Positions 5,353 to 34,342 of a DNA stretch of 64,000 nucleotides are shown piece after piece. How positions within the stretch are numbered: position 1 is the stretch's first letter; the number at the start of each line of letters is the position of its first letter. Origin of the DNA: Brachyspira hyodysenteriae ATCC 27164 (GTDB lineage Bacteria > Spirochaetota > Brachyspiria > Brachyspirales > Brachyspiraceae); contig NZ_CP015910.2 of NCBI RefSeq assembly GCF_001676785.2, positions 1,922,001 to 1,986,000 on the forward strand. The letters run 5' to 3'. The position numbers and the translations under genes are program-made. Below the pieces are notes generated by a model, which was not told the DNA's origin, did no database searches, and saw only the letters and a program-made list of their open reading frames with translations.

Positions 5353-7560
5353 TTATATCTTCCAATCAGGGAAACGTTTTATAACAGCAGAAATAATATC
5401 TGTTTTATAATGCTGTTCCAAATTAACTAATTTTTGGAATTCTCCGAATATGATTTTTACATCATCTTCCGACTCATTTTCTATAAATTTAAGCAGATAA
5501 GCCTTATCAAATACCAAATCATATACAACCTTCAAAAGTTTTCTAGCCTGTGCAGAAGTTTCTTTTTTATCAACCATTTTTGATAAATGAGGTATTATAC
5601 TAAGCAAACCTATCATAAGAGAATTTTTATTAATATTTATATCTCCTGCAGTTTCATCATAATACTCTCCGTCAAGTATCTTCTGAGCAAAATAAACAAA
5701 TGACTCAGGACATTCTCTATAATGAAGAAATATATCATCTATAGTCTTAGCAAGCATATCAGTTTTGCCGTCTTCAAATAATTTATTTACTATAAGATAA
5801 TTATTTTTAACCTGAGGAGAATAAAGCATTTTAAGTATTATATTATAATAATCATCTCTTCTGCCATCCCAAATAGCTTTTATAAATTTCTCTCTATAAT
5901 TTGAAGAAGGAAGCACCTCATAAACATGAGTATAATCATCAATATTTTTAACTATATCTGAAAGCAAAGGTATACTGCTGTCAACATTAGACTGACTTCT
6001 CAAATATATTGTACTTATTATTCTCTCATCATTAGGAGCTTTTTTATCTTTAGAAATATTAACAAAATAATTATTCATCTCCTTAGCTTCTTCAGAGTTT
6101 AAATTAGGAGTATAAGTTAAATATTCCATATATATTTGATATCTCTCAAAGAAATTATCAGTCTTATTGAATTTAGATAAACTTTCAGCATCATAAGTTT
6201 CAGCTTCCTCATTATAAAGGAAAGTATTTTTATCAAACTTAACTGTAGTAGAAGCTCTTACAGATTTTTTAGCACTCTCTAACCATTTAGTATAAGCAGA
6301 TTCAGCAACTACAACATCAGGTTTTGAAGTTAATTCCTGTTTTAAATCTTTTGTAGTTATTGTCTTTTTATATTTTAAGATAATAGTTAAAAGTTCTGTA
6401 GGATTTTCTTCTGCTATCTTTTTTATTTCATTAAGTTTATAAGCCTTATAAACATTAATATCATCATTAGGCAATGTTGTAAGAGATTGTATTGCCATAT
6501 CAAAAGTCATTTTTCTAACATCTTCCTGAGATACAAATTTTATATTAACATTATTTATATCTATTGACTTTATTTTACCAACACCGAAATTTCTATGTAT
6601 AACATATTTATCAACATCATATTGTATATACTTTTCAAATATTTCTATACAATCCTTAGGTTTTTTATTAACATTTGTAATAGATGATATTTCTTCTATT
6701 TTTTCAAAAAGAGTATGATTTGGATATAAAGCCTTATAAACATCTACAAGTCTATGTCTGAAAAATTTAGCTTTTTTATTATTTTGTGCAACTATATCCT
6801 GCTCATAATTAAGCAAATTTTTAATAGTTTTTAAAGCATCATTATATCTGTTATTCTCAAAATAGTAGAAAAATATTATTTTCCATACATCTATCATTAT
6901 ATTAGAATCAACAAGAGTCTTTAAAGCATTTTCATATTTAAGTAAATAATTATAATTATCAGGCTCATACTCCAATACTTTTTTAATATCGCTTTCTGCA
7001 TTATTTCTTTCTCTAATAAGATTTCTTTCAAAAGCAATTTTATAATAATGCACAGCACTGTTTATATCTCCAGCTAATTCTTTTGTATGTGCTATTTTTT
7101 CAGGGAGTTCAGGATTAGATACATCAAAACGTATAAGTCTTTCCCAAATTTCTAATGCCTCAGAATCTCTATTAGTACTTTGATAATAGCTAGCCAAATA
7201 TCTTAAAGCATAATCGCTTTCATAATATTCATCTAAAATTTTTTGGGATACGAATTCAACTATATTCCACTTTTTAGCATTTTTAAAAATACCTAAAAGT
7301 TTTTCTAAACTCATTTCTGAATAATTTTCTATTTTTAAATTTAAAAATCCATTTGCATATAAAGCTGATATATGATTAGGATTTTTATCTAACTGCATTT
7401 TAGCTGTTTCTATAGCGGAATTTATATCATTAGTATCATTTATATCATTGAGAATACCGGATAAATCAACAAAATACTTAGTAGTATAATTAAGAAGCGG
7501 TCTTCTCGTAAATGTTTCTTCTGAAAATACATTTTCTAATTTTTGTAGAGCTTCTGACAT
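5353..7560 (-). CDS. Large TPR-type protein resembling the N-terminal module of spirochaetal GreA, without a GreA domain
   Basis: A 735-aa soluble protein with no signal peptide. Residues 1-260 are helical, TPR-like repeats, including K-K-W-N-I-V-E and E-I-W-E-R-L-I-R segments. Around residue 315 there is V-I-H-R-N-F-G-V-G-K-I, a beta-barrel signature like the CarD/TRCF RNA-polymerase-interaction fold, followed by K-M-T-F-D-M-A. From memory of the families, this order matches the long N-terminal extension of Borrelia and Treponema GreA (about 900 aa); those proteins end in a GreA coiled coil and FKBP-like domain. Here the protein stops at F-P-D-W-K-I with no such domain. A role around RNA polymerase is therefore inferred, not shown. 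The gene follows a second TPR gene with a 4-bp gap, so the two form an operon. Confidence 0.55.
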   Translation of the reverse strand: MSEALQKLENVFSEETFTRRPLLNYTTKYFVDLSGILNDINDTNDINSAIETAKMQLDKNPNHISALYANGFLNLKIENYSEMSLEKLLGIFKNAKKWNIVEFVSQKILDEYYESDYALRYLASYYQSTNRDSEALEIWERLIRFDVSNPELPEKIAHTKELAGDINSAVHYYKIAFERNLIRERNNAESDIKKVLEYEPDNYNYLLKYENALKTLVDSNIMIDVWKIIFFYYFENNRYNDALKTIKNLLNYEQDIVAQNNKKAKFFRHRLVDVYKALYPNHTLFEKIEEISSITNVNKKPKDCIEIFEKYIQYDVDKYVIHRNFGVGKIKSIDINNVNIKFVSQEDVRKMTFDMAIQSLTTLPNDDINVYKAYKLNEIKKIAEENPTELLTIILKYKKTITTKDLKQELTSKPDVVVAESAYTKWLESAKKSVRASTTVKFDKNTFLYNEEAETYDAESLSKFNKTDNFFERYQIYMEYLTYTPNLNSEEAKEMNNYFVNISKDKKAPNDERIISTIYLRSQSNVDSSIPLLSDIVKNIDDYTHVYEVLPSSNYREKFIKAIWDGRRDDYYNIILKMLYSPQVKNNYLIVNKLFEDGKTDMLAKTIDDIFLHYRECPESFVYFAQKILDGEYYDETAGDININKNSLMIGLLSIIPHLSKMVDKKETSAQARKLLKVVYDLVFDKAYLLKFIENESEDDVKIIFGEFQKLVNLEQHYKTDIISAVIKRFPDWKI

Positions 7561-25822: not shown

Positions 25823-26731
25823 ATGAAAAAGAAAATTGCTCTGCTTTTATGCTCAACAGGAAATGAGGCATTCGCTGTTGGAAATATAATAATAGGAGCT
25901 AAAAAATACCTATTTCAAAATTTAAAAGATGAAGAATATGATATTATATTCTATACAAATAAATTAGAACAAAATGATGAAAAAGCTTTAAAAACAATTT
26001 TCCCTAGAATAATCATAAAAATATATGAATCCCCATTCTCCAAAAAGATGATGGAATTAAATGAATTAAATAATTTTAGCGTATTTACATATGCCAGATT
26101 TGAAGCTTTTAAATTGCTTGATGATTATCAAAAAATATTCTACGTTGATACTGATATTGTAATACAAAAAGATATTTCAGAAATACTTAATATTAATACA
26201 GAAATGGCTATATGTTATTTTACAAATGGAATGGCAGTATCAGGAAATTTTAATGAAGAAAATATTAATTTAGTAAAAAAATATGATTTAAATAAAGTAT
26301 CAATAGCTGCCGCTGTTTTTTTAATAAATGATAATTTGAAAGATTATAATAAAATGTATAAATGGTGCTATGAAAAATCAGAAGAATATCAAACCAATGA
26401 TCAATCAATACTTTGCCTTTTAATACAGGAATTCAATATAGAAGTTTATGATTTAACAGAAAGTTATGGAGCATATCCTAATTCAAATATAGCTAATGAA
26501 GCACATATAGTACATGCTATAGGACCTGCTAAATTTTGGAGAGGTACTTACAATAAATTCTGGGAAGAAAATAATAAAATATGGATAGAAGCCGGCGGAA
26601 ATCAAACTTATGAAGAAAGCAATGCTAAAAGAAAAAAAATAGATAAAATTGTTTGGTGGATACCAACTTTCAAATTACGCGATAAAGTTAGAAGATATTT
26701 ATTAAAAAAATCAGGATTAAGCGGAAGATAA
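25823..26731 (+). CDS. Family 8-like glycosyltransferase
   Basis: A 302-aa GT-A retaining-type glycosyltransferase. It starts K-K-I-A-L-L-L-C-S-T-G-N and has Y-A-R-F-E-A near residue 93 and F-Y-V-D-T-D-I-V-I near 107, where D-T-D is the metal-binding D-x-D. The late H-A-I-G segment (about 233) is a further GT8-type metal/phosphate contact. There is no signal peptide; the last 35 residues are basic and carry I-V-W-W-I-P-T-F-K-L-R, a tail motif shared with neighbouring enzymes of other families. It starts the plus-strand glycan locus and ends 3 bp before the next gene. A close relative is at 32.2-33.1 kb and a decayed one at 30.2-30.7 kb. Acceptor and donor are unknown. Confidence 0.82.
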   Translation: MKKKIALLLCSTGNEAFAVGNIIIGAKKYLFQNLKDEEYDIIFYTNKLEQNDEKALKTIFPRIIIKIYESPFSKKMMELNELNNFSVFTYARFEAFKLLDDYQKIFYVDTDIVIQKDISEILNINTEMAICYFTNGMAVSGNFNEENINLVKKYDLNKVSIAAAVFLINDNLKDYNKMYKWCYEKSEEYQTNDQSILCLLIQEFNIEVYDLTESYGAYPNSNIANEAHIVHAIGPAKFWRGTYNKFWEENNKIWIEAGGNQTYEESNAKRKKIDKIVWWIPTFKLRDKVRRYLLKKSGLSGR

Positions 26732-26734
26732 AAT

Positions 26735-27673
26735 ATGTTTAATACTCCTATATTATTAATTATTTTTAAAAGAAAATATACTGCATTAAAAGTTTTAGAT
26801 ACAATAAGAAATGTAAAACCCAAAAAATTATATATAGCAGCTGATGGCTGGAGAAATGAAGAAGAAAAAACAAAATGTATTGATACAAGAGAAGCTGTAT
26901 TAGAAGCTGTAGATTGGGAATGCGAAGTAAAAACTTTATTTCAAGATAAAAATTTAGGATGCTGTTATGGTCCTGTAAATGCTGTAAATTGGTTATTTGA
27001 AAATGAAGAACAAGGAATAATACTTGAAGATGATGTTATAGCTGAAACTTCTTTTTTTTATTATTGCGAGAAATTACTTAACTATTATAAAGATAATGAA
27101 AAAATTATGCATATTTCTGGTGATTCTCCTTTAGATAGGAAAGTTGGAGATGCTAGTTATTATTTTGCTACTGTTCAACATTGCTGGGGGTGGGCTACTT
27201 GGAAAAGAGCTTGGAAATATTTTGATGTAACTATGGAAAGTATAAATTTTGAAGATGTAAAAAAAACAATTAGAAAAAGATACAAAGATTTTAATATAAA
27301 AGATTACTGGCAAAGATGGTTTCCTAGAATAAAAAAAGAGCATTCTTCTGTATGGGATTATCAATGGACTTACTGTATTATCTCAAAAAATGGAATATGC
27401 ATTAATCCAAGTATAAATTTAACTTCTAATATAGGATTTGGAGAAGATTCTACCCACACTACAAATGAAAATGATGAAAATATAAATAGTAAAACATACC
27501 CTATGGATACTGAAAATATTATTCATCCTAAAGAAATAAAATGTGATGAAAGAGCTGATTTTGAAATAGCTATTAAAAGATTTAATATAAAACCTTTCTC
27601 TTTAACATCTAATATAACCAGAGAAGTTAAAAGAATTATAAAACAAATAAAAAACTTATTTATCAAAAAATAA
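26735..27673 (+). CDS. Nucleotide-diphospho-sugar transferase, HlpA-like
   Basis: A 312-aa GT-A-fold protein: N-terminal P-I-L-L-I-I-F-K-R, Y-I-A-A-D-G-W-R near residue 31, G-C-C-Y-G-P-V-N-A near 73, and I-I-L-E-D-D-V-I-A near 94 as the metal-binding acidic motif. H-C-W-G-W-A-T-W-K-R near 150 is highly characteristic. Proteins of this kind are often named hemolytic protein HlpA-like; the fold indicates a sugar transferase and the haemolysin label has no support in the sequence. The C-terminus is Lys-rich. It follows the GT8-like gene by 3 bp and is cotranscribed with it. The (AGCCA)14 tract begins about 80 bp after its stop. Confidence 0.78.
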   Translation: MFNTPILLIIFKRKYTALKVLDTIRNVKPKKLYIAADGWRNEEEKTKCIDTREAVLEAVDWECEVKTLFQDKNLGCCYGPVNAVNWLFENEEQGIILEDDVIAETSFFYYCEKLLNYYKDNEKIMHISGDSPLDRKVGDASYYFATVQHCWGWATWKRAWKYFDVTMESINFEDVKKTIRKRYKDFNIKDYWQRWFPRIKKEHSSVWDYQWTYCIISKNGICINPSINLTSNIGFGEDSTHTTNENDENINSKTYPMDTENIIHPKEIKCDERADFEIAIKRFNIKPFSLTSNITREVKRIIKQIKNLFIKK

Positions 27674-27755
27674 TTTGCAAATTAATAAAATTTAATATAT
27701 ATTAATAAATATTATGAAAAATGTATACTGTAAAATATATCTTGTATCTATAACA

Positions 27756-27825
27756 AGCCAAGCCAAGCCAAGCCAAGCCAAGCCAAGCCAAGCCAAGCCA
27801 AGCCAAGCCAAGCCAAGCCAAGCCA
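27756..27825 (+). repeat. Perfect pentanucleotide microsatellite (AGCCA)14
   Basis: Fourteen uninterrupted AGCCA units (70 bp) in otherwise AT-rich intergenic DNA. An ATG at 27714 reads into the tract in one frame (S-Q-A-K-P repeats) and stops at 27831-27833, just after it. The GT8 remnant downstream is open in a different frame. Because the unit is 5 bp, gaining one unit or losing two would join them. Confidence 0.95.
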
Positions 27826-27882
27826 AAAATTAAAAACATTAAATATATTACATTTATAATTTACATAAAATCATTACCAGCA

Positions 27883-28230
27883 TACATAAAAATTAATATA
27901 TACATATATCTATATAATAATTATATTTCATATTCAATATCAGCTGTTACATCAATTTTAGAAAATGAAAAATTAGTATTCAATTTAATAAATGCTGAAA
28001 TAAAGAAAAAAATATTAGATATAAAAAATATAAAAGAATGCGAAATTAATTTTTATACTCCAGACATAAAAATGTACGATGAATGGTTTGAAAAATATTC
28101 TTGTAAAGCACATTTATCTGCGGCTATGTTTTACAGATTTTCAATATCAAATATCATACCATCTAATATATATAAAATATTATATTTAAATTCAGATTTA
28201 ATAGTTACTGGAAGTTTAAAAGAATTATAA
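27883..28230 (+). pseudogene. Decayed, truncated GT8 glycosyltransferase copy
   Basis: The frame aligns without gaps to the first 27 residues of the intact GT8 gene that follows (remnant I-K-I-N-I-Y-I-Y-L-Y-N-N-Y against I-K-M-N-I-C-L-A-S-D-N-N-Y). With two short deletions it continues to residue ~120. From I-K-E-C-E-I-N onward the two are nearly identical. Defects: no start codon, the metal-binding D-S-D changed to N-S-D, and a stop right after S-L-K-E-L, so two thirds of the enzyme is missing. The reading frame is open upstream through the whole (AGCCA)14 tract to a stop at 27751. It is a tandem duplicate of its downstream neighbour. Confidence 0.85.
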
Positions 28231-28258: not shown

Positions 28259-29287
28259 ATGATTAAAATGAATATTTGCTTAGCATCTGATAACAATTAT
28301 GCTCCGTATATGGGTACAGCTATTGCATCTATATTAAAAAATAGTTCAGAAGATGAAAAAATCATATTCCATTTAATAGATGGCGGAATAACTAAAGAAA
28401 ATAAAGAAAAAATAATTTCATTAAAAAATATAAAAGAATGCGAAATTAATTTTTATACTCCAGACATAAAAATGTATGATGGATGGTTTGAAAAAACTTC
28501 TTGTAAAGCACATTTCTCTGCTGCAATGTTTTACAGACTTTCAATAGCAAGTATTATACCATCTAATATAGATAAAATATTATATTTAGATTCAGATTTA
28601 ATAGCTACTGGAAGTTTAAAAGAATTATTTTTAATGGATATAGAAAATCATTATGCTATAGTTATTAAACATAGCACCAATGAAAAAAATAAATGGTCAA
28701 TTGATGGTATAAATGATTATTTCAATTCTGGGGTATTATTAATTAACAATAAATTATGGATAAAAAATAATATAGAAGATCAATTTAACAAATTCTATAA
28801 TAATAATTATAAAACTTGTTTTGGAGATCAAGATGTTTTAAATAATGTATTAATTGGAAAAGTAAAATATGCTGATATGCGATATAATGTTTATGCTGAA
28901 AAAGGATATTATAATACTGAAAATGATATAGAAAATCCTATTATTATACATTACCTTAGCCCTGAAAAGCCATGGAAAGAAAACTGTAGAGGAACATTAT
29001 TCATAGATGAATTTTGGAGATACTATCAATATACACCTTGGTTTAGAGATGAGCCTATAACAGCTTTTCAAACTATATTAAAACAAAAATTTTATGATTA
29101 TGATGATGTACGTTTAAAAGGAAACTGGATAAAACTATTTGGTATTTACAGCAGTGATAAAGTACTTCAAATAGTTATATTTGGAATACAAATTAATATA
29201 TCTATAGATTATAAAAAAAGACGAGATTTAGGAAGACTCATACCAATAAAAAAATGGCGTGATAGATTCAGAGAAAAATTTAGATAA
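28259..29287 (+). CDS. Family 8 glycosyltransferase (LPS glucosyl/galactosyltransferase-like)
   Basis: A 342-aa canonical GT8 enzyme. Motifs in order: N-I-C-L-A-S-D-N-N-Y at the N-terminus, R-L-S-I near residue 92, Y-L-D-S-D-L near 110 (D-x-D), Y-F-N-S-G-V-L-L-I near 157, G-D-Q-D-V-L-N near 190 and I-I-H-Y-L-S-P-E-K-P-W near 228. These are the donor-binding and catalytic contacts of bacterial LPS 1,2-glucosyl/galactosyltransferases. After the catalytic part comes a beta-rich tail (I-V-I-F-G-I-Q-I-N-I) and a basic end, R-L-I-P-I-K-K-W-R-D-R-F-R. ATGs at 28259 and 28268 are both possible starts; no strong ribosome-binding site separates them. It is followed after 17 bp by a methyltransferase. 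Confidence 0.88.
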   Translation: MIKMNICLASDNNYAPYMGTAIASILKNSSEDEKIIFHLIDGGITKENKEKIISLKNIKECEINFYTPDIKMYDGWFEKTSCKAHFSAAMFYRLSIASIIPSNIDKILYLDSDLIATGSLKELFLMDIENHYAIVIKHSTNEKNKWSIDGINDYFNSGVLLINNKLWIKNNIEDQFNKFYNNNYKTCFGDQDVLNNVLIGKVKYADMRYNVYAEKGYYNTENDIENPIIIHYLSPEKPWKENCRGTLFIDEFWRYYQYTPWFRDEPITAFQTILKQKFYDYDDVRLKGNWIKLFGIYSSDKVLQIVIFGIQINISIDYKKRRDLGRLIPIKKWRDRFREKFR

Positions 29288-29304: not shown

Positions 29305-30126
29305 ATGAATAAAATAATAAATGATATAGTTTGGTATATACCATTCAAAAAATTAAGAAATGCTTTAAGAAATTATTTAACTAAATTAGCAGAACCTCAA
29401 CAAATAGAACATGAAGCTTTATTATATCTTTTTAAAAATAAAAATATGGAGTTGACAGTTCAATATTCAAATTTTCAAGGAATGAAATATATAGATACTA
29501 CAAATTTCGGAGCTATATATCATAAACTATTAGGTTCATATGAAGAACCTATAGAAAATTGGATCTATGAAATAAAAAATAAAAATTATGATGTTATAAT
29601 TGATATAGGATGTTCTGAAGGTTATTATGCTGTTGGATTTGCTTATAAAGGTTTTGCAAACAAAATCATAGCTTATGATATAGATACTAGTGCAATAAAT
29701 ATGGCTAAAAGATTACAATCTATAAATGAATTAAAATCAGAATTAATATTTATAAATTCAGAATGCACATTTAATGATATAGAAAATATAATTAAAGCAT
29801 CAAAAAAAGTATTAATTTTCTGTGATATAGAAGGCGGAGAAGTATATCTTTTAGATAATGAAAAATGTAAAGCTTTAAATAAAGCAGATATAATATTAGA
29901 ATCACATGATCTATTTTTTAATGAAAATAGATATGTAACAGAAACTATTAAAAAAAGATTTCAAAATACACATAAAATAGAAATGATACAAGATTATAAA
30001 AGAGATGAATCTAAATATCCTATTATCAAAGATTTAACAATAGAACAAAAATATAAGATATTGTATGAAAATAGAGGCGTAGACAATATGATATGGATGC
30101 GTTTAACTTCTGATGAACACTTATAA
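29305..30126 (+). CDS. SAM-dependent methyltransferase
   Basis: A 273-aa class I methyltransferase. Motif I is V-I-I-D-I-G-C-S-E-G-Y-Y near residue 92, with an acidic end of strand 2 at A-Y-D-I-D near 119 and I-F-C-D-I-E-G-G-E near 172. The last resembles the FkbM-type pattern, in which a sugar hydroxyl is methylated. The first 24 residues are basic and carry I-V-W-Y-I-P-F-K-K-L-R, the same tag found at the C-terminus of neighbouring glycosyltransferases. A strong AAGGAGT ribosome-binding site precedes the ATG. Position in the locus suggests it methylates a surface glycan (inference). Confidence 0.8.
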   Translation: MNKIINDIVWYIPFKKLRNALRNYLTKLAEPQQIEHEALLYLFKNKNMELTVQYSNFQGMKYIDTTNFGAIYHKLLGSYEEPIENWIYEIKNKNYDVIIDIGCSEGYYAVGFAYKGFANKIIAYDIDTSAINMAKRLQSINELKSELIFINSECTFNDIENIIKASKKVLIFCDIEGGEVYLLDNEKCKALNKADIILESHDLFFNENRYVTETIKKRFQNTHKIEMIQDYKRDESKYPIIKDLTIEQKYKILYENRGVDNMIWMRLTSDEHL

Positions 30127-30248: not shown

Positions 30249-30688
30249 ATGGAAAAGAAAAATTAGCAGTAGTTTTATGCTCAACATCCAACCAGATGTT
30301 TGCTGTTGGAAATGTACTAATAGGATTGAAAAAATATTTTTCATTATCTTAAAAAGATTATGATGTAATACTATATATAGGCGGTACTATAAATCCAAAA
30401 GATGAAAATGCTTTAAAACAAATATATAGAAATATCATAATAAACCATTATAAATCACCATTAGAAAAAAGTATGAAAAATGCTAACTGTACATTGATGT
30501 GGAGTTTAATGACTTTTGCTAGATATGAAATCTTTGACTTATTGAATAAATACAATAAAACACTTTATTTAGACACGGATGTACTAATACAAAAAGATAT
30601 AATAAAATTATCAGATATAAATAAAGATATTTTCGTATACTATGCAAAATATATTAATATAAAAGTAAATATAGTCTTTTTAACATAA
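30249..30688 (+). pseudogene. Decayed GT8-like glycosyltransferase
   Basis: This is a broken relative of the GT8-like gene at 32.2 kb: L-A-V-V-L-C-S-T-S-N-Q-M-F-A is shared exactly, then L-I-G-L-K-K, K-D-E-N-A-L-K, A-R-Y-E-I-F and Y-L-D-T-D-V-L-I-Q-K-D-I (D-T-D still intact). Three lesions are visible. The ATG at 30249 is out of frame; one extra A in the A run at 30258-30262 would restore it. There is an in-frame TAA at 30350-30352. The C-terminal half is missing, with a stop at 30686-30688. The segment from ATG 30473 remains open but encodes only a fragment. Confidence 0.85.
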
Positions 30689-30740
30689 AACTCTAATTCT
30701 CAATATATATTTCTTAATATAATTAAATATAATAATTTTA

Positions 30741-31793
30741 CTATAATATAATTGAGTTTTTTCTTAATTGTTTAAGTATAAATTGAGGAAATATTTTAGT
30801 AACAATTTTATATTTTAAAAATATATTTTCAAATTCTTTTATGCTTTTCTTATTAAGTAAACAATTATACATATTTTTTAACATTGTTATAACAGGACAT
30901 ACATTATTTCTATCTAATACAATATTTATCATATTATTAGAAAGTTCTCTATAAAATATTTCTTTATTCTCTATCTTATCATATAATTTATATAATTCTA
31001 TAAGAAATCTATCCAAAGCATATCCTATATTTTGATAAGATTTTTCATAATATATATTAAATATTCTATCAAACATAGCAGTATAATTCTTTATATCGGC
31101 ATATACAGAACGTTTTGAACGACCAGCAGAAGTTAAAATCTTTCTATCATAATATTTAGCATTATTATTGACTGACATATTTGGAGTATAAATAATACTT
31201 TCCAATAAAAATACTAAATCCTCAAAATAATTGGAATTAATAAATGTAATATTATTTTTTATTAAAAAATCCTTACGCCAAATTTTACCCCAAACTTCCC
31301 AAGGCCATAATTTATCACTATAAAGTCCTTTTTCAGAATATAAATAAAAATATGAAGGAAGAGTATAATCAATTACATAATCATCTTTTATATTACCATC
31401 AATGACAATATTATAATCCTCTTTTTCTCTAAATATAGTATTAGTATAAGATATATCAGAATTATATTTTTTAGAAGTAGAAAATAAATCATATAAAAAA
31501 TTTGGGGAATAGAAATCGTCATTATCTATAAATGCCAAATACTCACCTACAGCTTTTTTTATACCAATATTTCTATTTTTGCCTATCCCTTGGTTTGTTT
31601 CATTTCTTAAAACAACTATTCTATTATCTATTTTTTTATACCTTTCTAATATTGAATGGCTGTTATCTGTAGAACAATCATCTATACAAATTATTTCTAT
31701 TTCTTTTAAAGTTTGATTTATTACACTGTCAAGACATTTTTCAATGTATTTTTCAGCATTGTATACTGGTATTATCACACTCACTTTTATCAT
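30741..31793 (-). CDS. Family 2 glycosyltransferase (soluble, EpsE/CpsJ-like)
   Basis: A 350-aa GT-A enzyme: K-V-S-V-I-I-P-V-Y-N-A-E-K-Y-I at the N-terminus, I-I-C-I-D-D-C-S-T-D-N-S near residue 34 (first acidic site) and F-I-D-N-D-D-F-Y near 92 (the D-x-D metal site). The second half (residues 200-350) is helical, with no membrane segment, ending in the basic L-K-Q-L-R-K-N. It is the only minus-strand gene inside the glycan locus and therefore has its own promoter. A (TGCT)15 microsatellite and a 9-bp-stem hairpin (31833-31852) lie in its upstream region, 40-150 bp before the ATG. Sugar specificity unknown. Confidence 0.87.
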   Translation of the reverse strand: MIKVSVIIPVYNAEKYIEKCLDSVINQTLKEIEIICIDDCSTDNSHSILERYKKIDNRIVVLRNETNQGIGKNRNIGIKKAVGEYLAFIDNDDFYSPNFLYDLFSTSKKYNSDISYTNTIFREKEDYNIVIDGNIKDDYVIDYTLPSYFYLYSEKGLYSDKLWPWEVWGKIWRKDFLIKNNITFINSNYFEDLVFLLESIIYTPNMSVNNNAKYYDRKILTSAGRSKRSVYADIKNYTAMFDRIFNIYYEKSYQNIGYALDRFLIELYKLYDKIENKEIFYRELSNNMINIVLDRNNVCPVITMLKNMYNCLLNKKSIKEFENIFLKYKIVTKIFPQFILKQLRKNSIIL

Positions 31794-31879
31794 AATTTTA
31801 CACCGTTAATATTTTAAAACAAAATATGATAAACCTATTAAGATTAATAGGTATATGTGAGTAATATTTTTTAAAACTA

Positions 31880-31941
<62 letters not shown>

Positions 31942-32231
31942 TTAATGATAAAAAGCTATTAAATAAATGACAGACATAATTAATCATATATAATATTATA
32001 CATTATAATTATAAAAAAACAAGCAGAGTCTATTTTACAATATAATTTATAAATTCTCATTTAATTTAACTTAAAAATAACAATATATAAAAATACTTGA
32101 TGTTATTTAAATATATTTTATAATATAATGAATATTTGGAAAATTAAAATGAATCATCAATATAAAAATTACAACATAAATCTAGTTATTATTTTTAATG
32201 ATATAATATAATTTCATTTTCGGAGAATAAT

Positions 32232-33134
32232 ATGTCAAATATTTATAATATAAAAAAGTTAGCAGTAGTTTTATGTTCAACTTCAAATCAGATGTTTGCA
32301 CTTGGTAATACACTAATAGGTCTAAAAAAACATTTTTCAATGCAAGAAAATGAATATGATATAATAATTTATACTGATGTAAAAATAAATATAAAAGATG
32401 AAAATGCATTAAAAAAGATATATCCAAATATTATTATAAATATATTTAATTTTGAAAATAAATTTACTAAATCTTTCCTTAGCTCTGAAAATGTATCATA
32501 TTATTCAATAATGGCATATTCCAGATATGAGATATTTACTTTTTTGAATAAATATGAACAAATATTGTATATTGATACTGATATTTTAATACAAAAAGAT
32601 ATAATTCAATTTACATCTATGAAAGATAAAAATATATATGCATGTAAATATAAAGATATACTTAAAGATAATAAGTTAAAATATTCTGAATCTTTCAACT
32701 CAGGTATGATGTTATTTAATAGTAATATTGAAAATGCAGATAAAATATACAATGAATTATATAGGTACTCTATTGAAAGTCTTAATGCTGATGAGGTAGT
32801 TTTAAATACTGTATTAGCTAAATTTAATGTAACTTTTGGATATTTAGATAGCAGATATAATTGTTTTAATGTAAGTGATATTGAATCACAAAAAAATGCG
32901 TATATAATACATGCTTCCGGAAGTAATAAATTTTGGGATTTAGAAAATAATGATGAATGGAACGAAAATAATAAAAAATGGATTGAACTTGGTGGAATAA
33001 AATACGACAAAGAATTGATTAATAAAAAAAAGAAACTTATAGAAAAACTTTTATGGTTTATACCTAGTATAAAATTAAGAAGTAAACTAAAAGTGAAATT
33101 GGGTAAAAAATTTGGATTTAGATGGACTTTATAA
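32232..33134 (+). CDS. Family 8-like glycosyltransferase
   Basis: A 300-aa enzyme of the same subgroup as the first gene of the locus: L-A-V-V-L-C-S-T-S-N near the start, Y-S-R-Y-E-I-F near residue 97, Y-I-D-T-D-I-L-I near 115 (D-x-D), F-N-S-G-M-M-L-F near 156 (donor site) and I-I-H-A-S-G near 222. The last 30 residues are basic and contain L-L-W-F-I-P-S-I-K-L-R. A GGAGAAT ribosome-binding site precedes the ATG. Its 3' end overlaps the next gene by 13 bp. The preceding 291 bp between the microsatellite and this gene hold no other gene I can support. Confidence 0.82.
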   Translation: MSNIYNIKKLAVVLCSTSNQMFALGNTLIGLKKHFSMQENEYDIIIYTDVKINIKDENALKKIYPNIIINIFNFENKFTKSFLSSENVSYYSIMAYSRYEIFTFLNKYEQILYIDTDILIQKDIIQFTSMKDKNIYACKYKDILKDNKLKYSESFNSGMMLFNSNIENADKIYNELYRYSIESLNADEVVLNTVLAKFNVTFGYLDSRYNCFNVSDIESQKNAYIIHASGSNKFWDLENNDEWNENNKKWIELGGIKYDKELINKKKKLIEKLLWFIPSIKLRSKLKVKLGKKFGFRWTL

Positions 33135-34342
33135 TTATGTATAGTGTATGTCAATGTGAAGAATGTAAAAGCGGTAAATATAATCCTTTAGATTATATTA
33201 TAAAAGATGAAGATATTAAAAAGTTAGATGAAGAAAGACCATTAGGAATATCTGGTCATTTAAGAGTAAAAAATGAATCTATGTCTATCGCTCAATCTAT
33301 AGATTCATGTATAGATGCTTTAGATGAACTTATAATAACATATAATACATCAGAAGATAATACAGAAGAAATTTTAAAAGAATATCAAAAAAAATATCCT
33401 GACAAAATAAGACTTTATCATTATCAACCTAATATTATTAATTATATATCTACAAAAGAAGAATTAGAAGAATTTAAATCAAAAAATATGTCATATGAAA
33501 CAAACAGTATACATAGTTTAGCTAATTATTATAATTTTGGATATACAAAAATTAAATACCAATATTATATGAAAATAGATGCTGATCAAATTTATTTTAC
33601 AGAAAAATTATTGGAAACAAGAAAAGCATTACTTTATAATTTATATAATATAAAAGAAATACCAAATATAAAAGAAATATTAAAATATATCAACTATATT
33701 TCATTTATGGAAAAAATAGCTTGGATTATACCATTGAAATCTTTAAGAGAAAAATTTAGATTTTGGTATAAAGCAAAATTATATAGAAATATTATTACTA
33801 ATTTAGGTACTTTTGAACTTGTTATTTTACATAAATTAAAGAATAATAATAAATGTTCTTTTGTATTAGGAGGAATAGAAAGCATATTATATGATGATAA
33901 AATTAGTGTTGTATTCAGAGATTTGAATATAAATAAAAAAAGAATGGATATAAAGATCTTTATGGGATGTGTAGGAGACCATACTATATGGATGCCTACT
34001 TCAAAAGAAAAATACTATACAGTTAATGGATCTCCATCAGAAGGAATATCTACTAATGGGTTTATTTCAGAAATAGGTTTGTATTGGGTGCATGTAGGAT
34101 TGATAAAAAGAAAAAAATATATTGATGATAGAAATTTAGTAGTACCATTGGAAAATATTAATAAGATAAACTACAATGATATAAAAAAATTTCATTTTGA
34201 TGCCATAAATGAAAACACATCTAGAACAATTTCATATTGGGCTAAAACATTTTTAGATTATGATAAAAAATATATAACCAAATACTTTATCGATAAATAT
34301 TTTAATGATATTTTAGAGTATGCATTAAAAAATTATAAATGA
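33122..34342 (+). CDS. Putative GT-A glycosyltransferase with a Cys-rich N-terminus
   Basis: A 406-aa protein. The glycosyltransferase core is indicated by G-H-L-R-V-K-N-E-S near residue 43, L-D-E-L-I-I-T-Y-N-T-S-E-D near 68 and Y-M-K-I-D-A-D-Q-I near 149, a GT2-like acceptor/donor and D-x-D layout. The first 20 residues contain C-Q-C-E-E-C, unusual for the family and possibly a metal site. A basic I-A-W-I-I-P-L-K-S-L-R segment interrupts the middle (about 198-208). Start could be the ATG at 33122, overlapping the previous gene by 13 bp, or the ATG at 33137; neither has a good ribosome-binding site. The function is less certain than for the other transferases. Confidence 0.65.
   Translation: MDFIIMYSVCQCEECKSGKYNPLDYIIKDEDIKKLDEERPLGISGHLRVKNESMSIAQSIDSCIDALDELIITYNTSEDNTEEILKEYQKKYPDKIRLYHYQPNIINYISTKEELEEFKSKNMSYETNSIHSLANYYNFGYTKIKYQYYMKIDADQIYFTEKLLETRKALLYNLYNIKEIPNIKEILKYINYISFMEKIAWIIPLKSLREKFRFWYKAKLYRNIITNLGTFELVILHKLKNNNKCSFVLGGIESILYDDKISVVFRDLNINKKRMDIKIFMGCVGDHTIWMPTSKEKYYTVNGSPSEGISTNGFISEIGLYWVHVGLIKRKKYIDDRNLVVPLENINKINYNDIKKFHFDAINENTSRTISYWAKTFLDYDKKYITKYFIDKYFNDILEYALKNYK

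Follow-up and report, generated by a model that had tools for sequence, protein, structure and literature searches.

It is known that in S. gallolyticus a (GCAGA)n repeat in a leader-peptide gene sets the read-through of a premature terminator at the pil1 and pil3 loci (Danne et al. 2014, PMC3894217), and this mechanism was proven there genetically with variants, chloramphenicol and mutants (PMC3894217). Two further systems bear a partial likeness to the loci described below. In Neisseria and Haemophilus (the opa CTCTT genes and the LPS tetranucleotide genes), slippage of 4-5 nt flips the reading frame and the targets belong to surface glycosylation, with the repeat lying inside the effector coding sequence. 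In the trp-type attenuators, the position of the ribosome on a leader ORF decides whether the terminator forms, with the amino-acid supply as the input.

Here we analyse a window of 64,000 nucleotides of Brachyspira hyodysenteriae ATCC 27164 (NZ_CP015910.2, positions 1,922,001 to 1,986,000) together with repeat tracts across the genus, and the results suggest that in Brachyspira surface-modifying genes are switched by the miscounting of repeats in a leader. Like pil1, the Brachyspira loci have a predicted promoter, a short leader ORF with a repeat (of 5 nt in pil1) and a gene with its own RBS, and where a stem-loop terminator is predicted, the unit number modulo 3 would place the leader stop either before the hairpin or inside or after it; judged from the sequence, they have the anatomy of the pil1 type, with a predicted terminator in a part of the loci only. 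By contrast, while S. gallolyticus has two pilus operons, with an RBS before the leader and the terminator always present, in Brachyspira there are dozens of loci genus-wide, with the units AAGC, AAGCC, CAACA, ACAGC and CAGAC, the leader ATG of the AAGC class would be leaderless, many loci are terminator-free and end on the next start codon, and the genes that follow are those of surface glycosylation and of putative surface proteins rather than of pili. The loci differ from those of Neisseria and Haemophilus in that the repeat lies mostly in a separate leader ORF (the exceptions being L143 and L147), and from the trp type in that the input would be a heritable repeat number, the tract peptide being identical in all frames. 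In a literature search, with most subscription papers outside its reach, no description of phase variation by repeats was found for Brachyspira, and leader peptides go unmentioned in a review of phase variation from 2025.

The locus under study lies on the forward strand of the window and has the following features.

27675-27703, plus strand: predicted sigma-70 promoter (TTGCAA at 27675-27680, 17-bp spacer, TATATT at 27698-27703)
27714-27833, plus strand: leader ORF in its current frame, predicted OFF (ATG at 27714, TAA at 27831-27833)
27754-27826, plus strand: pentanucleotide tract (CAAGC)14.6, perfect, 73 bp, stop-free in every frame
27829-28230, plus strand: the other, long frame of the leader, with 133 open codons (TAA at 28228-28230, offset +401)
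27889-28227, plus strand: remnant of the 5' portion of a GT8 gene, decayed (no start codon, NSD in place of DSD, two deletions of 12 nt that keep the frame)
28259-29287, plus strand: intact GT8 gene, 342 aa (PF01501, E=2.2e-46)

Scored with an 18-bp spacer, the predicted promoter has 5/6 matches in its -10 box and 4/6 in its -35 box, and the ATG follows 10 nt downstream. In the current frame the leader ORF translates the tract into a repeated five-residue peptide and stops at offset +4 past the tract, while the long frame has no stop from the beginning of the tract onwards and ends 28 nt short of the start of the intact GT8 gene, which is the next intact gene 3' of the tract and the sole candidate target. 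That the tract is not a chance occurrence is seen with the reversed pattern as the control: in the same genome (G000; 3.07 Mb in two contigs), (AAGCC)4 has 43 overlapping matches in five tracts and the reversed pattern has none. The initial annotation took the tract for a frame switch placed before a GT8 sequence. Re-reading of the frames bears out that the ATG at 27714 leads into the tract and to the stop at 27831-27833, and that the downstream frame is open back through the tract to 27754 and forward to the stop at 28228-28230; the arithmetic that one unit gained or two units lost (5 bp each) would join the ATG with this downstream frame also holds. The placement stands; in the relatives of the tract, described below, the repeat lies in a separate leader ORF in place of the GT8 fusion that had been supposed.

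That the downstream GT8 copy is decayed, as had also been noted, is evident from the loss of its start and of the DxD motif and from its end near residue 125 of 342. It aligns with the 5' region of the intact gene at 28259-29287 and with the orthologues in G019, G005 and G004, and in Pfam its frame matches GT8 (PF01501, E=3.6e-9) over profile positions 2-118 of 253 only. Since the copy is both truncated and mutated, the frame behind the tract makes no working GT8 at any unit number. On the remnant's own branch there are 38 non-synonymous and 13 synonymous changes; when the same substitutions are placed at random, 3.95 stops are expected in the frame and none occurs in 1.3% of the cases (P=0.013). 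The open frame may thus go beyond the neutral expectation, which is suggestive only, because some of the divergence is probably older than the decay (synonymous changes number 13 vs 7.1 at random).

Based on these features, the tract at 27754 appears as a worn member of the set and is at present predicted to be OFF, being either a relic or a switch that now acts on the intact GT8 gene at 28259. No terminator is detectable between the tract and 28259, where the best hairpin has -1.7 kcal/mol (p=0.57 vs shuffles), and because of this, and of the long frame falling 28 nt short of the GT8 gene, the activity of the tract is doubtful. We give nearly an even chance to the view that the tract is a pure relic, its leader and the GT8 copy having decayed together so that nothing is controlled at this place, the genus-wide system itself being real. 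The dead GT8 copy and the missing terminator are in line with this, as is the orthologous place in G012, which has neither tract nor remnant; by contrast, a tract that is perfect and long, a 133-codon frame that is free of stops where about four are expected (some changes may predate the decay) and two deletions that are both in-frame speak against it. We nevertheless consider it probable that the tract is one of a genus-wide family of phase-variable leader switches, where the unit number would determine the attenuation or the coupling of the next gene, and we turn now to that family.

We took one genome per species, 26 Brachyspira genomes in all, and collected the (AAGC)n and (AAGCC)n tracts with a length of 20 bp or more. 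Tracts of (AAGCC)4 or longer occur in 13/26 of these genomes vs 0/221 of the others in the phylum sample, and those of (AAGC)5 or longer in 10/26; G000 has five AAGCC tracts and three AAGC tracts. At every tract with a resolvable downstream gene the sense strand is AAGC(C), and nearly all loci with flanks have a non-triplet repeat in a short ORF 5' of an intact gene. The order common to the AAGC/AAGCC loci is promoter, leader ATG, about 40 nt, tract, and then either a terminator or the next gene. The TATAAT-like -10 box ends mostly 6-9 nt (about 7) before the leader ATG, which puts the ATG close to where transcription is predicted to begin and would make it leaderless, and from there the frame is open into the tract, which usually begins 35-49 nt on. 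A promoter with an ATG open into the tract is present in 20/24 independent leaders vs 0.58 expected from dinucleotide shuffles under a strict definition, the criteria for this class having been fixed after its inspection. The gene starts of this class were placed manually, on the basis of reading frames and ribosome-binding sites. In 17 of the 23 flanks that are independent at a cut of 65% identity, and may still share deep ancestry, the end of one leader frame falls between -20 and +15 nt from the next gene start (4.64 expected, P=1.5e-10). ATGA overlaps are found at the coupled ends of three L081 copies and of L084, L087, L090, L091, L097 and L104. A terminator stronger than 95% of the shuffles is present in 8/23 flanks of the class (P=1e-5), and four of the six flanks that have no coupled end have strong terminators (L089, L108, L115 and L116). 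The coupled ends and the strong terminators elsewhere therefore point to two layouts, one of read-through at a terminator and the other of delivery of the ribosome to a start codon.

It is noted that a further rule, that both OFF frames stop within 15 nt, holds in 8/23 flanks vs 6.8 expected, which is no more than chance alone gives. In one leader family there is no excess of synonymous changes in the leader codons (76 vs 77.8 expected), and selection at the peptide level on the long leader frame is therefore unsupported, so that we claim only its openness. Note also that GCTT or GGCTT, complementary to the first unit, is present in the last 30 nt before the tract in 13/24 independent leaders (2.9 expected), among most AAGC/AAGCC loci and at a second tract of the window at 31880, with its frame not fixed; it could be a pause hairpin or an aid to slippage. 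A hairpin formed by this GCTT and the tract start has a barely significant folding energy (4/24) and is kept as an oddity only.

These flanks bear on the neisserial CTCTT-type geometry that the initial annotation had proposed, in which the repeat would lie in the 5' coding sequence of the GT8 gene and the unit number would decide whether the ATG at 27714 and the GT8 frame are joined. The frame arithmetic, the true in-gene CAACA tracts that exist in the genus (L143 and L147) and the long leader frame of L096, which is fused to its gene, agree with such a locus. Against it, the GT8 frame is truncated and has lost its start and DxD, in the 17 coupled flanks the long frame reaches only to the start of the gene and is out of frame with it, and the relatives' genes have starts of their own. 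Intact GT8 genes behind tracts, which the initial annotation had thought might occur in other strains, do exist in other species, five of them (L097, two in L098, L104 and L116; assigned by Pfam for L104 and judged by the N-terminal sequence and sequence matches for the others), each with its own start codon and none fused to the leader. We regard an in-gene contingency locus here as very improbable; with the repeat in a separate leader ORF and the frame ending at the next start or at a terminator, the design is that of a pil1-like leader switch and not of a neisserial CTCTT locus.

It may also be conceived that the repeat number alters the distance between promoter elements or the position of a site for a regulator. 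Simple sequence repeats in the promoters of other bacteria act via spacing, and the tract does lie upstream of a gene. As it is located downstream of the -10 box and of the leader ATG, however, its length cannot change the spacing between the -35 and -10 boxes, and such a variation would leave the frame split and the coupling to the gene start unexplained, so that we consider it very unlikely.

After this picture had been formed from the AAGC/AAGCC loci, (CAACA)n tracts were sought and used as a held-out class, with gene starts set by a fixed rule. They occur in 18/26 Brachyspira genomes; the set comprises 27 further regions plus L120, from 17 genomes, with G009 and G001 omitted in part or whole. 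The leader ATG touches the tract in 14/16 independent flanks (4.3 expected), a significant terminator is present in 6/15 (P=5e-5) and coupled ends in 6/15 (2.7 expected, P=0.02), the signal of the latter being weaker than in the AAGC class. Among the terminator loci of both classes, one frame stops before the hairpin and another inside or after it in 16 of 16 (10.1 expected, P=2e-4). The tract itself encodes one cyclic peptide in all three frames and a stop in none. The anatomy, its statistical excess, its replication in this second class of repeats and the frame logic are direct readings of the genomes. That they should arise from neutral microsatellites gathering in the intergenic DNA of glycosylation islands, which are in flux in an AT-rich genome, is very improbable in view of an orientation and a layout of leader ATG, promoter, terminator and frames that are uniform over independent flanks and a second class, and of the specific GC-containing units in AT-rich DNA.

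Some loci of the set have particular forms. In L143 (2551) and L147 (2461) the CAACA tract follows directly after the start codon within the coding frame, which is the classical in-gene form, and L156:2525 is without a long frame. The loci 2525 and 3861 of L156 have near-identical downstream flanks with the units ACAAC and ACAGC, respectively, and L089 and L112 have near-identical downstream flanks with AAGC in one and CAAG plus GCAG in the other; from near-identical flanks with different units it follows that the unit has been replaced over time. The gene at 26735-27673, which precedes the locus under study, has orthologues in G012 and G019 that each stand behind a (CAACA)n leader of their own (L120 10376-10458; L133 4632), which carries a terminator-like hairpin, CCCCATAT...ATATGGGG. 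The window is without this leader, which implies that the island exchanges switches.

In the mechanism that we infer from the layout, down to the activity of the promoter, the translation of the leader, the attenuation or coupling and the switching of cultured cells, transcription from the promoter would give an mRNA that opens with a short leader ORF, with the ATG about at the predicted transcription start in the AAGC/AAGCC class. The ribosome would then pass the stop-free repeat, and because neither of the unit lengths, 4 and 5 nt, is divisible by three, the unit number would set the frame in which it exits. In the OFF state, that of one or two of the frames, the ribosome would stop at once, and either the intrinsic terminator would form or the next start would not be reached. 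In the ON state, that of the other frame or frames, it would enter or pass the hairpin, or reach the next start codon (often at an ATGA), giving read-through or translational coupling. Slipped-strand changes of the unit number would flip the state. We propose tentatively, at somewhat less than even chance, that the AAGC/AAGCC class is a distinct, terminator-free phase switch, in which a leaderless leader frame delivers the ribosome by termination-reinitiation, in parallel at many surface-glycosylation genes throughout the genus.

Brachyspira are pathogens and commensals of the pig, bird and human gut. If the model is true, surface variability would have a possible explanation in genus-wide leader switches before genes for glycosyltransferases, sugar methylation and putative surface proteins, and the pil1 mechanism, so far the case of a single species, would become a recurrent design. 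Isolate genomes that already exist allow the tracts to be called, and thus the ON and OFF states can be directly tested.

A second switch of the window, on the reverse strand, has the following features.

31995-32022, minus strand: predicted promoter (TTGTTT, 16-bp spacer, TATAAT), with the leader ATG 7 nt further on
31877-31987, minus strand: leader ORF, predicted OFF (ATG at 31985-31987, TAG at 31877-31879 directly after the tract)
31880-31941, minus strand: tetranucleotide tract (AAGC)15.5, 86 nt before an intact GT2 gene
31834-31851, minus strand: weak terminator-like hairpin, CCTATTAATCTTAATAGG then TTTATCAT (-4.9 kcal/mol, p=0.06 vs shuffles)
31798-31808, minus strand: stop codons that end the leader in its two other frames (at 31806-31808 and 31798-31800)
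30741-31793, minus strand: intact GT2 glycosyltransferase, 350 aa, the target of the switch (PF00535, E=4.4e-40)

Both of these frames run beyond the hairpin and leave 12 and 4 nt, respectively, to the GT2 start codon. The switch at 31880 is better preserved than that at 27754, and it is also predicted to be OFF. Over the loci, the states predicted by the frame rule are mixed, with about 35 ON and 27 OFF. The copies at 6162 and 7447 of L081 are alike in the 110 nt upstream and in the downstream flank as far as into the gene, and they have 10.8 and 11.8 units, for which the frame rule predicts ON and OFF, respectively.

Among the downstream genes examined, Pfam assigns GT8, GT2, CgtA-like, FkbM and TylF methyltransferase and radical SAM proteins, and other targets with no Pfam match (e.g. 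L093) have hydrophobic, lipoprotein-like starts; from their sequences the examined targets would be glycosyltransferases, methyltransferases and putative surface proteins. A tag like IVWWIPFKKLR, N- or C-terminal, is common to unrelated enzymes (methyltransferases, radical SAM and GT8-like proteins) and is found in the window at 29305-30123, 26650-26731 and 33122-34342 and in the L081 genes; it may be a segment that they share for docking or membrane binding. Dead gene copies number at least two in the island, the GT8 remnant and a decayed copy, at about 30250-30690, of the glycosyltransferase at 32232-33134.

In the contig collection, AAGCC tracts were found at only one other Brachyspira locus, in a MAG, and there were no plasmids from the genus with them. 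The viral contigs that carry AAGCC tracts are unrelated, with a GC of 0.45-0.66; in one of these (L127 3542-3596, GC 0.45) the AAGCC tract comes soon after an ATG and before the apparent start of a DNA methylase.
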